Of a DNA stretch of 14,619 nucleotides, positions 5,649 through 14,619 are shown piece by piece. The position numbers and the translations under genes were made by a program. The stretch covers positions 1 to 14,619 of the forward strand of contig QJNS01000551.1 of assembly GCA_004154925.1 (NCBI GenBank), written 5' to 3'. Under the pieces are notes generated by a model. That model made no database searches and had not been told where the DNA came from. It saw only the letters and a program-made list of their open reading frames with translations. Origin of the DNA: Monosporascus cannonballus (taxonomy: Eukaryota; Ascomycota; Sordariomycetes; Xylariales). The stretch's first letter is position 1, and each line of letters starts with the position of its first letter.

Positions 5649-5885
5649 GTGAGGTATTCATTTCCTGGCAGTCTGAGTTGCTAAGAGCGCCAGCCTTTTA
5701 TTTCTTGATAGGTTGCTAACGTCTCTTATCCTCAGATCCTGACAATCAAATTCCCCTTCCAGTTTAACATCAAGGCACTCCGCGTCCCACATGACAAAGC
5801 CTGGTCGATCAAGAAGAGCTTAAAGAGCCGTGAAAGATACGACCACCTCTGGAATTCAGGACAACGTCGACACGCAAGAGACTGA
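5649..5885 (+). other. Possible intron plus orphan exon upstream of the NLR
   Basis: 5649-5735 looks like an 87-nt fungal intron: donor GTGAGG, branch site GCTAAC at 5715-5720, acceptor CCTCAG. Reading phase 0 across it gives VGVASNVLE joined to ILTIKFPFQFNIKALRVPHD and on through KAWSIKKSLKSRERYDHLW to a TGA at 5883-5885, one base before the NLR start codon. The sequence has protein-like composition, but I do not recognise it, and a TGA at 5604 closes the frame upstream. It may be the remnant of a neighbouring gene, or the 5' leader of the NLR transcript with a leader intron. Confidence 0.3.
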
Positions 5886-7630
5886 AATGCCGCAAAGAAA
5901 ACGACGCTGCCTTGCCAGAGACGGCGAGAGCCATTTAGAAAGGCCTCAGAAACGCAACAAATCAGAGGCTTCCGTTCCTCAGCAAGAGCAGAGTTCGCTC
6001 TTTAGACAAAATGGATCTCAATTTGGCGGTCGAATCAGTCTAGGGCATGGATCTTCCATGCGGCAGGGGAATATTCTAAATGTATATCAGACAGCTAACC
6101 GATGCCTCTCCGACTTACGCTCCACCGATCCCCGTTACGACAAGAAACGCATCGAAGAGACAAAGGGCGGCCTATTACGGGATTCGTACCTCTGGATCCT
6201 TACTCACGATGATTTCCGGCGATGGCGCGACGACCCCGACAGCCGCCTGCTCTGGATCAAGGGCGACCCGGGCAAGGGCAAGACCATGTTGCTTTGTGGC
6301 ATTATCGATGAGTTGATGAATCAGAATGCCCATACCGAACAGACTGCCAACACTACCCACCTTTTGTCCTTCTTCTTCTGCCAGGCCACCGACGATCGGC
6401 TCAATAATGCAACAGGCGTACTTCGCGGTCTTATATACCTCCTCGCCGACCAGCAGCAGCCACTGGTCTCGTATATCCAGAAGAAATACGACGGCGCAGG
6501 CAAAGCGCTGTTCGAGGGTCCAAATGCCTGGTTCGCATTACGCGATATCGTTATTCAAATGTTGCAGGATCCGGATCTCCCAGATACTACCTTAATTATC
6601 GACGCGCTCGACGAATGCGAAACGGATCTCCCGTTACTTCTCCACCTGATTACGGAGGCCCCGCCTAGATCCCGTATCAAGTGGCTTTTGTCTAGTCGTA
6701 ACAGAATCGACATCGAGCAAAGACTGCGGCCTGATCATTCGCGGGCAAGGCTTAGTCTGGAGTTGAAAAGCAACGCGGACCATGTCTCACATGCTGTTGA
6801 CGCATATATCGATCATTGCATCTCGGAGATTCCAGCCGTACAAGATAACATACAGCTTCAAACCCAGGTTCGCGACCAAATGCGACGGGGGGCGGATGGT
6901 ACGTTCCTTTGGGTAGGCATAGTTACCCAGGAGCTTAAAAAAGCGCAAAGCTGGCATGTTATGGAAATTATGGACGAAGTACCTCACGGCTTAGAGGAAC
7001 TATACTGGCGGATGATGCGACAGATCCAAGGACTCCGACGAGACACCACATACTGCCTACAGGTACTTTCAGCTGTTGTAACCACATACCGTCCACTTCG
7101 CTTAGAAGAACTTGGTGCTTTATCCGGTTTACCTCAACCGGCGTTCGGCCCCCTTCAGACCGTAGCAAATATTGTGAAATTATGTGGTTCATTTCTTACA
7201 ATACGGGAAGATCGCATCTTTGTCATCCACCAATCAGCTAAAGATTTTCTTTATGAAACGGCAAACCATGCTATATTTCCTAACGGAATCGGAGCCGCCC
7301 ATCACGACCTATTCTCGAGATCTCTTGGTGTTCTGTCGAAGACCTTACGACGGGACGTATACCGCCTCAATGACTGGGCTGCCCACCGACCAAGTGACGC
7401 TGCCGGATCCCGACCCGTTAACGGCCGCGCGGTACTCGTGCATCCACTGGGTTGACCACTTGGCCGAATGCAAGCCTGATAAGCAGGCACAATATGAAGA
7501 CCTTCGAGATGGCGGGATCATCGACAGATTCCTGCGACGGCATTATCTCCACTGGCTCGAGGCTCTTAGTATCCTCGGAGGTGTATCGGAAGGGATCCTA
7601 GCGATATCGAAACTTAACGGGTTGTTCCAA

Positions 7631-7685
7631 GTAAGCGCCTAATAGCAGGCTTTATATGGAATACCATTAATAATATGCGGCATAG
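7631..7685 (+). other. Phase-0 intron joining NACHT and WD40 parts
   Basis: The 55-nt intron has donor GTAAGC, a TTAAT branch-like site near 7667 and acceptor CATAG. It begins exactly after codon CAA in frame 2 (…LNGLFQ) and resumes at 7686 in frame 3 (GKTTQLNEFIQDATRFIRYH…VYASALIFSP…), which is the normal linker of this NLR family. Unspliced reading stops at once (TAA at 7640-7642). It explains why the WD40 frame differs from the upstream frame, so no second mutation is needed here. Confidence 0.88.
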
Positions 7686-7901
7686 GGAAAAACGACGCAG
7701 CTTAACGAATTTATCCAAGACGCGACCCGGTTTATTCGATATCACAGATCGGCAATCGAAAGCAGTCCGCTTCAGGTATATGCGTCGGCGCTTATCTTCA
7801 GCCCGTCCCATAGCATAGTACGGCGTCACTTTCAGAACGAAGAACCGCGATGGTTAGTTTTAAAGCCGGCTGTCGAAGATAATTGGGGCGCGTGCCTGTT
7901 G

Positions 7902-8600
7902 ACGCTCGAGGGCCACCGCGGCAGGATTAGCTCGGTAGCCTTCTCGCCCGATTCTAGCCGCGTGGCGTCGGGCTCTGACGACTACACCGTCAAGGTCTGG
8001 GACGCGGCGACGGGCGCGTGCTTGTCGACGCTCGAGGGCCACCGCGGCAGGGTCAGCTCGGTAGCCCTCTCGCCCGATTCTAGCCGCGTGGCGTCGGGCT
8101 CTTACGACAGCACCGTTAAGGTCTGGGACGCGGCGACGGGCGCATGCCTGTCGACGCTCAAGGGCAACCGCGGCAGTGTCAGCTCGGTAACCTTCTCGCC
8201 CGATTCTAGCCGCGTGGCGTCGGGCTCTTGGGACTGCACCGTTAAGGTCTGGGACGCGGCGACGGGCGCATGCCTGTCGACGCTCGAAGGCCACCGCGAT
8301 AGGGTTAGCTCGGTAGCCCTCTTGCCCGATTCTAGCCGCGTGGCGTCGGGCTCTAACGACGGCACCGTCAAGGTCTGGGACGCGGCGACGGGCGCATGCC
8401 TGTCGACGCTCGAGGGCCACCGCGGCAAGGTCAGCTCGGTAACCTTCTCGCCCGATTCTAGCCGCGTAGCGTCGGGCTCTTACGACTACACCGTCAAGGT
8501 CTGGGACGCGGCGACGGGCGCGTGCCTGTCGACGCTCGAAGGCCACCGCGGCAGGGTTAACTCGGTAGCCTTTTCGCCCGACGGGAACTACCTTATAACA
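7902..8600 (+). repeat. WD40 repeat array, five full 126-bp units plus a partial sixth
   Basis: Units start at 7902, 8028, 8154, 8280 and 8406, with a sixth partial unit from 8532 that departs after VAFSPDG. Each full unit encodes 42 residues beginning TLEGH and containing SVAFSPDSSRVASGS, TVKVWD and AATGACLS. The DNA is nearly identical between units. Changes cluster at unit positions 8 (R/S/K), 13 (A/T), 14 (F/L), 26 (D/Y/W/N/Y) and 28 (Y/S/C/G/Y). These lie near the GH and S-G-S-x-D-x-T elements, which fall on the ligand-facing side of the propeller. After the array comes the usual C-terminal tail of the family (EWITYNGRNLLWLPLDYRP, AVGCKAGWVWV), ending at TAA 8841-8843. Confidence 0.95.
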
Positions 8601-8843
8601 AATACCGGCACTATACCACTGCTTGCATTATCCAAGATCGGCCCGCTACCTACCGCCCCTCAATACTCTTCTACCGATTATTATAACCTGGGGGTAAAAA
8701 AGGAATGGATAACTTATAACGGCCGGAATCTGCTTTGGTTACCTCTCGATTATCGACCTAAATGCTCAGCCGTTACGGCACGGGCTATTGCGGTCGGCTG
8801 CAAAGCCGGGTGGGTTTGGGTGTCAACCTTTTCATTTAGCTAA

Positions 8844-12746: not shown

Positions 12747-13049
12747 CCTATTTAGAACCCTGGCGGAGATCCACTTAGCCCATGCGAAATTTGCATGAAG
12801 GAATGTGAGGAGTTATAGAGGTGATTAACGTTGCCCTTGTATCCCCACATCTGAAGCCAAAACATGTTCACAGCTGAAACCGAAGGGGACCCAAGACAAA
12901 GGTCTTTTGAAAAGACAGATCGCGGTCCCCCGCTATGGCTCCCTAGGATTGAAGAAGGACAGGAGAATACTTGAAAAGAGAGACATCATGCTCCCTCCCT
13001 CTCCTTTGTCGTCGGACTCAGCACGGCCGTGTCGCGGCCGGCTTGGACT
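12747..13049. other. No gene recognised
   Basis: This is a spacer between two MITEs. The plus frame at 12907-13104 runs into the hAT MITE and has no motif. Confidence 0.4.
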
Positions 13050-13057
13050 GCAGCACT

Positions 13058-13430
13058 TAGGGTTTGCAAATGGGTACCCAATGGGTACCCACGGTCGTGG
13101 GTAGCGTGGGTATTTTTTAGTACTTCGCCACCAACATATATACGCAAATAATTGGTTTACGATAACGTACTAATCAGCGTACTAATTAGCGGATAGCTTT
13201 AAAATTTATATCCATCGGAAATATAAGGCTTATATAATATAATATTTAATTACAATTATATGCGACCGTAAAAATCTTCTTAAATAAGTTTAATGGGTAA
13301 AAATAAATGTTAGTAGGTAAGTACTACCCACGGATTACCTAGGACTACCCATTCGTGGGTAGCATTTTCTTGGCATGGGTGGCTCGTGGGTAGAAAATTT
13401 AGCGTGGGTGGGTGGGTAGTGCAAACCCTA
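13058..13430. mobile_element. 373-bp non-autonomous hAT element (MITE) with target duplication
   Basis: The terminal repeats are perfect over 11 bp: TAGGGTTTGCA at 13058-13068 and TGCAAACCCTA at 13420-13430. They are flanked by an exact 8-bp direct repeat, GCAGCACT, at 13050-13057 and 13431-13438. An 8-bp duplication is the hallmark of hAT insertions. Both ends hold many TGGGTA / TACCCA words, including two TGGGTACCCA palindromes near 13071-13092 and several GTGGGTAG words, which are probable transposase-binding subterminal repeats. The middle (about 13115-13320) is very AT-rich and non-coding. It is a different family from the hAT relic at 1740-2640, judging by the subterminal words. The intact ends and duplication suggest a fairly recent insertion. 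Confidence 0.93.
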
Positions 13431-13438
13431 GCAGCACT

Positions 13439-13945
13439 CTATTGGCTGCAATTAATGACAACTCAGCACATCCGATATGCATCCGGCAGACTATTGCCTT
13501 CTCATCCAATTGTATTCGAATAGAGACAAGTCGTCGTTTTAAAAATCTCTCCTGGTTGGCGGAGACGTAATGGTGGCTATCACGAGCTGCAGGAGACTCA
13601 GGCCAGAGTCCAAAGTACTTGCAGAAAAAGCGAATTGTTTGGCACCACCATCTGTCGGGACTATTGCCCTTCGCTTGCAAGCGGGTGGCAAGACTATTTC
13701 TTCCTATAACGGCACTTGCCGACAGGAGTGATAATTTTCAACTAAGACTACCTAGCACCGAGTCGTTTGGGTACCTTCAGCTTCATGGAGCTAGTATTCT
13801 CTACAATTAACTCGCTCACTTAGAGGGTTAGGCATACATAGAACATTATTACTCTTTTTCTGGACTGCTCATTCCAAACTGGCTTAGAAAGCTTCCAATT
13901 TGCGCATTCAAGGTCACTTCTCTGACCAAGATCATCTCAAAACAA
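13439..13945. other. Spacer and likely promoter/leader of the microexon gene
   Basis: A minus-strand open frame (13399-13680) continues from the MITE into genomic DNA. Without the MITE it would run into QSKPAATRPC and stop, so the insertion changed its C terminus if it was ever coding; no motif was found. A CT-rich tract at 13851-13861 lies about 90 bp before the ATG at 13946, and the bases before that ATG (CTCAAAACAA) resemble fungal translation starts. These are plausible promoter and leader signals, not proven. Confidence 0.35.
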
Positions 13946-14619
13946 ATGGACGTAAGTAAACTGGACCCGAAGCATACCCTTGGATAACTAACTAATAGCG
14001 GACCGAATCTTCACACTTGTAGAAAGTGAGCCTGGCTAGATGGAATGCACTGAAACACACCGACTCGGTCTTATTAACGGTTGCAGGCAGTAAGTGTTCC
14101 TACCTAGATTAAGTATGCTGGATTATACTGACTATATCTTGATGACTATAGCGTGTAAGTAAATCTGGCTAGATGGACGGTGCTGAATCCTGCTGATTCT
14201 GGATGGTTATAGTGGGTAAGTAAATCTGGCCAGATGGGCGATGCTGAATCTTGCTGATTCTGGATGGTTATAGGATGTAAGTGAACCCGGCCAGATGGGC
14301 GATGCTGAATCTTGTTGATTCTGGATGGTTATAGCGGGTAAGTGAACCTGGCTAGATGGGCGGTGCTGAATCCTGCTGATTTTGGATGGTTATAGCTTGT
14401 AAGTGAACCTGGCCAGATGGGGGATACTGAATCCCGCTAATTCTAGATGGTTATAGCCTGTAAGTGAACCTGGCTAGATGGGCGATGCTGAATCCCGCTG
14501 ATTATGCCTTGATGGTTATAGTTTGTAAGTGAACCTGGCCAGATGGGCGATGCTGAATCCCGCTGATTTTGGATGGTTATAGCATGTAAGTGAACCCGGC
14601 CAGATGGGCGATGCTGAAT
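13946..14619 (+). CDS. Putative gene made of single-codon microexons (5' end, partial)
   Basis: ATG GAC (13946-13951) is followed at once by a GTAAGT donor. Splicing at the best donor and acceptor sites gives exons of exactly 3 nt: AAA 14023-14025, GCA 14087-14089, CGT 14152-14154, TGG 14213-14215, GAT 14274-14276, CGG 14335-14337, CTT 14396-14398, CCT 14457-14459, TTT 14522-14524, CAT 14583-14585. All introns are phase 0. Their lengths are 71, 61, 62, 58, 58, 58, 58, 58, 62 and 58 nt, and an eleventh runs off the window. Donors are GTAAGT (once GTGAGC), acceptors TAG or CAG, and each has a YTRAY branch-like site before the acceptor. The product would begin M-D-K-A-R-W-D-R-L-P-F-H. Nine of the ten complete introns meet an in-frame stop if retained, and intron 2 shifts the frame. 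No protein family can be judged from 12 residues. The alternative is a minisatellite carrying splice-like words. Confidence 0.65.
13952..14151 (+). other. Diverged 5' introns 1-3 of the microexon gene
   Basis: Intron 1 (13952-14022) has a CTAACTAAC branch region at 13987-13995 and acceptor TTGTAG; using the earlier AG at 13998 would add an in-frame stop. Intron 2 (14026-14086) begins GTGAGCCTGGCTAGATGG, sharing CTGGCTAGATGG with the array, and ends TTAACGGTTGCAG. Intron 3 (14090-14151) ends CTTGATGACTATAG, close to the CTTGATGGTTATAG end of intron 9. So the three share ancestry with the array but have diverged widely, while the one-codon spacing is kept. Confidence 0.6.
14155..14619 (+). repeat. 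61-bp tandem array: 58-nt intron-like unit plus 3 variable bases
   Basis: Unit starts (GTAAGT) lie at 14155, 14216, 14277, 14338, 14399, 14460, 14525 and 14586. The unit at 14460 is 4 nt longer. The conserved core is GTAAGTGAACCTGGCCAGAT, then GGGCGATGCTGAATCC, a CTGAT branch-like site and GGATGGTTATAG. Differences between units are mostly single transitions (for example GGCTAG/GGCCAG), whereas the 3 bases after each TATAG differ in every unit. The array continues past the window end. Confidence 0.95.

Follow-up and report, generated by a model that had tools for sequence, protein, structure and literature searches.

The end of a contig from Monosporascus cannonballus, a fungus of melon roots, carries an array of ten 3-letter stretches set between short intron-like blocks, which we consider likely to belong to a gene of serial one-codon microexons whose introns are alike and whose codons have diverged. 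The window, i.e. the whole stretch of DNA analysed here, is one whole contig of 14,619 bp that ends within the array, so that neither an ordinary exon nor a stop codon or domain is seen further downstream. The gene reading goes back to a first-pass annotation of the same DNA and was supported in part. Hypervariability restricted to the codons, splice signals kept in a diverged block and the likeness of the blocks to introns of the actin gene speak for it, whereas the accompanying views that blocks 2 and 3 are independent of the repeat and that there was no fungal gene of this kind to compare it with had to be given up.

Structure of the array

Parsing by script placed an ATG at 13946, followed by GAC and then by ten complete GT..AG blocks with lengths of 71, 61, 62, 58, 58, 58, 58, 58, 62 and 58 nt. 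The donor is GTAAGT in nine of ten blocks and GTGAGC in block 2, which also has the single CAG acceptor, all others ending in TAG. At least one YTRAY site is present in every block (10/10). Each block is followed by a spacer of exactly 3 nt (10/10), and all ten of these codons are in phase 0 if ATG GAC is exon 1. They are all mutually different. If retained, nine blocks would bring an in-frame stop into the message while block 2 (61 nt) contains no stop but would shift the frame. The script thus reproduced for 10/10 blocks the array that had been described before (donor, YTRAY site, YAG acceptor, 3-nt spacing, phase 0) as well as the statement that nine blocks hold an in-frame stop and the tenth shifts the frame.

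All predicted features lie on the plus strand. Predicted exon 1 (ATG GAC, Met-Asp) occupies 13946..13951 and is followed by predicted intron 1 (13952..14022, GTAAGT..CTAAC..TAG), for which the profile search detected no similarity to the repeat, and by the predicted one-codon exon AAA (Lys, 14023..14025). Predicted intron 2 (14026..14086, GTGAGC..TTAAC..CAG) is by similarity a diverged repeat copy and precedes GCA (Ala, 14087..14089). Predicted intron 3 (14090..14151) is likewise a diverged copy, in register with intron 9 in the alignment, and precedes CGT (Arg, 14152..14154). With predicted intron 4 (14155..14212) a tandem repeat unit is reached, as seen by parsing, alignment and Tandem Repeats Finder. 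From here on, the parse and the alignment give the predicted one-codon exon TGG (Trp, 14213..14215), intron 5 (14216..14273), GAT (Asp, 14274..14276), intron 6 (14277..14334), CGG (Arg, 14335..14337), intron 7 (14338..14395), CTT (Leu, 14396..14398), intron 8 (14399..14456), CCT (Pro, 14457..14459), intron 9 (14460..14521), TTT (Phe, 14522..14524), intron 10 (14525..14582) and CAT (His, 14583..14585). Predicted intron 11 (14586..14619) is partial, with 34 nt before the contig stops inside the array. Tandem Repeats Finder reported 7.7 copies with a period of 61 for 14147-14619.

We infer that the ATG at 13946 is the start codon. A TAG at 13829 closes the frame upstream of it, and the interval contains no further ATG in that frame. 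Its position -3 is C and not the usual A, which is the fungal consensus at this place, and this counts against the gene reading. The predicted visible product has 12 residues (MDKARWDRLPFH; Met-Asp-Lys-Ala-Arg-Trp-Asp-Arg-Leu-Pro-Phe-His) that are charged and, judged by eye only, not signal-like, and it would continue past the contig. Ten stop-free codons in a row have a chance expectation of about 62% by simple arithmetic and are hence unremarkable. A normal exon over the array was ruled out for either strand, as no stop-to-stop frame of at least 80 aa is found there.

Published M. cannonballus assemblies are based on short reads, a method relevant to the contig break. They comprise 753, 758 and 1,441 contigs with 89.3-91.5 Mb and are described as SPAdes assemblies of 150-bp Illumina reads (PMC7407469). 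Short-read contigs would be expected to break inside near-identical tandem repeats, which may account for the contig end in the array.

Relationship of the units

Blocks 1 to 3 had been described as very different from the repeats, and the 3-nt rule had been taken to hold beyond one copied unit. Both views stand for block 1, the only block without detected similarity to the repeat, and fall for the other two. Blocks 2 and 3 are diverged repeat copies and not independent sequences. The first part of block 2 (14022-14066) is found by the repeat profile R1, from which block 2 had been left out (22.6 bits, E 1.2e-6), and 14024-14188 matches the repeats at 67% identity. Block 3 can be aligned with block 9 without gaps, with 32 of 51 interior bases identical (19/51 differ) and all 11 splice-signal bases the same. 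Units 2 to 11 are alike as tandem copies. Since blocks 2 and 3 are copies, the 3-nt rule has a single sequence-independent witness, namely block 1.

The 62-nt form occurs only in introns 3 (14090-14151) and 9 (14460-14521), where four extra bases are found at the same place, followed by CTTGATG. That both introns have this form although intron 3 is far diverged points to shared ancestry or to exchange between units. Block 2 starts with GTGAGCCTGG where the repeats have GTAAGTGAACCTGG. Judged by eye in this one case, its start could be the result of a loss of GTAA after which a G was regained at +5, thereby keeping the 3-nt exon.

A chance test was carried out with 20 Mb of Markov-1 simulated sequence, in which both strands were searched for YAG-N3-GTRAG junctions at 45-90 nt spacing. 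The simulated sequence contained two series of at least two junctions and none of at least three, compared with ten in series for the array in the window, which rules out a chance alignment of splice motifs. As most of the ten-junction series is due to tandem copying, the simulation figure alone is no proof of selection.

Variation between the units

Hypervariability of the codons is the best evidence for coding. For units 4 to 10, the mean pairwise difference was 0.65 in the three exon columns compared with 0.099 in the 58 intron columns and 0.123 in the 47 interior intron columns. The TATAG before and the GTAAGT after the exon columns are invariant in units 3 to 10. Only 10 of 35,990 column triples reach the exon value, the exon triple itself counted among the ten, and no run of three consecutive columns other than the exon has values of at least 0.5 in units 4 to 10. 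With unit 3 added, two further triples at alignment columns 49-52, mostly the four bases that the other units lack and that are shared by units 3 and 9, reach 0.67 and 0.81. Parsimony on a tree built from introns only required 8 changes in the three exon columns and 20 in the 58 intron columns (binomial P 4.4e-5), a value that is only indicative because tandem units may exchange. The sample behind these figures consists of seven near-identical units from one locus in one strain. Variation concentrated in the exon is not expected from uniform mutation or from homogenisation of whole units. It would be expected under selection on the coded residue, and likewise if intron copies had been inserted between older codons.

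Native introns and genome-wide searches

Spliced alignment of the actin gene from the same genome yielded three introns. One of them, with 58 nt, reads GTAAGT..CTGAC..CAG and another, with 61 nt, GTAGGT..CTAAC..TAG, so that these two are of the size and type seen in the array; the third is longer (153 nt). The alignment script favoured consensus donors and introns of at least 45 nt, and it missed the first tiny exon, by eye ATGGAAG before GTATGC. In regard to exon size, a 1-nt exon with transcript support is described for Fusarium CYP621A (PMC12940212), and 1-nt exons are described for the plant genes APC11 and VPS55 (PMC8831610). The Fusarium case indicates that fungal spliceosomes are able to handle such tiny exons.

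We searched the genome (88.8 Mb, 618 contigs) for TAG acceptors and GTAAGT donors separated by three bases, a scope that covers arrays built on these two signals. TAG-N3-GTAAGT was found at 371 sites compared with 307 for the reversed control, and eight of the 371 lie inside the array. There was no other series of at least three among all 371 sites, and an expanded microexon family was not found, the 371 sites giving one series. Sites neighbouring each other on the same strand within 1 kb occurred in only two other cases. One is a site in the MITE-like element upstream (see below), 838 bp before the array. The other is a pair 91 bp apart on the minus strand of a different contig (C504:15261/15352, within C504:14300-16600), which is not in a tandem repeat and lies in the 5' flank of a frame that by eye is HET-C/glycolipid-transfer-like. 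Uniform placement would give about 0.04 same-strand pairs within 100 bp (arithmetic). The pair may be a product of chance or may mark a 3-nt exon within a 5' untranslated region.

A scan of 39 other loci (135 kb), including 30 NACHT loci with short flanks, one of which is the NLR of the window itself, gave no series at 45-90 nt spacing; the C504 pair, with a spacing just beyond this limit, could not be reported by it. DNA searches of the genome with the 473 bp of repeats, with 651 bp of upstream flank plus blocks 1 to 3, and with 132 bp of blocks 2 and 3 each gave matches only in the array's own contig, using a tool in which scoring is limited to the best candidates and very common words are passed over. 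With these searches and scans, neither the other end of the array nor a second array, a paralogue or a homologue was found in the genome. Viral contigs scanned with a repeat pattern gave 0 matches, and a scan for promoters and terminators led nowhere, its models being bacterial and not meaningful for a fungus.

Neighbouring features in the window

A MITE-like element at 13058-13430, about 500 bp upstream of the array ATG, has perfect 11-bp terminal inverted repeats (TAGGGTTTGCA / TGCAAACCCTA) and is flanked on both sides by the 8-bp direct repeat GCAGCACT. We take this element to be hAT-like. On the minus strand at 1781-2611, frames are found that by eye resemble a decayed hAT-type transposase; the three frames tested there had no Pfam match.

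An NLR gene at 5824-8843 combines a NACHT part with five near-identical 42-codon WD40 units, which have a mean nucleotide difference of 8.4%. Eleven of the 42 codon columns vary in amino acid, the most variable being position 30 (D,Y,W,N,Y) and position 32 (Y,S,C,G,Y). The NACHT frame matches M. cannonballus DL762_009689 with 99% identity over 63% of the query. Comparison with the relative P0001 showed a change of frame in the interval from about 7310 to 7374, so this copy may be broken. For WD40 repeat regions of fungal NLRs, concerted evolution together with diversifying selection is described in PMC4986451. The NLR on the contig of the array shows a related regime of near-identical units and hypervariable codons, as set out there for fungal NLRs.

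Alternative explanations

The array could be a non-coding minisatellite near the contig end, with a unit that reads GTAAGT..TAG by chance and that is either unspliced or contained entirely within a single larger intron or an untranslated region. A tandem repeat with a period of 61, a MITE-like element some 500 bp upstream, and the fact that no downstream exon was found within the contig and no paralogue in the genome would all suit such an origin. A neutral unit should, however, vary evenly, whereas variation in units 4 to 10 peaks at just the three bases between the invariant TATAG and GTAAGT. Further, unit 3 has kept all its splice signals despite 19 differences in 51 interior bases, and the unit resembles native actin introns. 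We consider a minisatellite improbable. The conserved part might instead be the functional one, the 58-nt element acting as an intronic or tandem small RNA, with the 3 nt being neutral spacers that change at the true neutral rate. Intron interiors are indeed well conserved among units 4 to 10, and one stretch of two units has a better fold than most of its shuffled versions (z -2.23, with 4 of 200 equalling it), but three single introns fold no better than shuffled sequences (z -0.11, -0.42 and -0.28) and the interior of unit 3 has diverged while its splice signals were kept. A search of 13001-14619 gave no Rfam family above threshold (two matches, both under the gathering score), which rules out a known structured RNA and also counts against this view. 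We regard a small RNA function as very unlikely indeed.

A different kind of alternative agrees with the one-codon splicing and departs only in the origin of the array. Here, intron copies of the introner type would have entered an older, uninterrupted frame at one codon boundary after another, so that the codons would always have been different, without any diversifying selection. This would be in line with the sequence-similar introns described at new positions, seamlessly inserted, in Hypoxylaceae and Xylariaceae, which belong to the order Xylariales like Monosporascus (PMC12403724, PMC8469720). Free insertion should, however, result in varied exon lengths and phases while all ten exons are exactly 3 nt long. 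Moreover, our DNA searches of the genome, with best candidates scored and common words skipped, returned neither copies of the array introns elsewhere nor similar introns at dispersed gene positions. Insertion at successive codon boundaries is in our judgement decidedly improbable as the origin of the array.

Proposed mechanism and implications

Under the favoured reading as a gene of serial one-codon microexons, the array at the contig end would be the 5' part of a protein-coding gene, the coding sequence of which is cut into one-codon exons, with introns of ordinary size being removed one after another. The 61-nt unit (58-nt intron plus one codon) would have arisen through tandem duplication, with the codons diverging at a much higher rate than the introns. 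Recent copying or exchange may keep the introns alike, while selection on the peptide may have kept the codons different or driven them apart. Because every exon is one phase-0 codon, the product would differ by a single residue whenever a unit is gained, lost or skipped, and the frame would always be preserved. Variation of the peptide could therefore come from recombination between introns as well as from exon skipping. If truffle NACHT-ANK genes containing 3-bp microexons are taken as a model, the product may have a variable recognition segment.

Taken further, the array might be a codon-shuffling locus in which each residue sits on its own 61-bp recombination cassette. The near-identical introns would allow unequal exchange to insert, remove or replace single residues without loss of frame. 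Identical splice sites would compete, and exon skipping would turn one transcript into a combinatorial set of peptides (the ten codons seen allow as many as 1,024), variety being favoured by selection as it is in allorecognition or in immune receptors. We put this forward tentatively and think it rather unlikely.

If the array is spliced as predicted, two or more classes of filamentous ascomycetes would have serial one-codon-exon genes, which standard annotation could miss and at which short-read assemblies could break. With its succession of ten near-identical splice sites, the array would then also offer a clean system for studying how 3-nt exons are ordered and joined by the spliceosome. 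Owing to the contrast between introns that are alike and codons that are hypervariable, a direct test of residue-by-residue diversification is possible with existing strains.

Comparison with known systems

Ultra-small exons that are joined by spliceosomes, fungal ones included, are reported for Fusarium CYP621A and for plant APC11 and VPS55, where they are described as single tiny exons in ordinary conserved genes, whereas M. cannonballus has a predicted series. Introners and stwintrons of Xylariales (PMC12403724, PMC8469720) resemble the array in being sequence-similar spliceosomal introns of the same fungal order. They are, however, described at new positions in many genes while the M. cannonballus introns form one tandem array with fixed 3-nt exons. 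The WD40 regions of fungal NLRs share with the array, as far as PMC4986451 describes them, near-identical units that carry few hypervariable codons. A WD40 unit consists of 42 codons without an intron; the array unit pairs a single codon with an intron.

The micro-exon genes (MEG) described for Schistosoma mansoni likewise have tiny exons in series, most of them with a length divisible by three, and their product is highly variable. According to PMC10526429, their exons measure 6-81 bp (3-81 bp in its abstract) and mostly 15 bp, the introns have lengths between about 100 and 5000 bp, and a signal peptide is present. In contrast, every internal exon seen in the M. cannonballus array has 3 nt, its introns are 58-71 nt long and mostly near-identical, and its host is a fungus.

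The first-pass annotation was aware of no fungal gene of serial single-codon exons. This has to be corrected, as multiple codon-sized (3-bp), alternatively spliced microexons were reported earlier for NACHT-ANK NLR genes of Tuber melanosporum (PMC4986451, PMC10197012, both citing Iotti et al. 2012). Both fungi are filamentous ascomycetes, and the truffle genes as described share with the array multiple 3-bp, frame-keeping exons and a link to the diversification of a peptide segment. In M. cannonballus, a member of the Sordariomycetes while T. melanosporum belongs to the Pezizomycetes, one locus only was found, its array directly follows ATG GAC, and its splicing is predicted. The abstract of Iotti et al. 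2012 is said to liken more than 50 truffle paralogues to schistosome micro-exon genes. On the contig of the array, NACHT similarity was found in one place only (6244-6729), which is part of the separate WD40 NLR. As the contig ends inside the array, neither a NACHT nor an ANK part is seen with it, and we do not assign it to the NACHT-ANK family. By sequence, 3-bp predicted exons that keep the frame nevertheless follow each other between short GT-AG introns in 10/10 cases, making the array a candidate for the serial codon-sized microexon genes in another fungal class. The M. cannonballus array is thus probably a further fungal example of such genes, and not the first.
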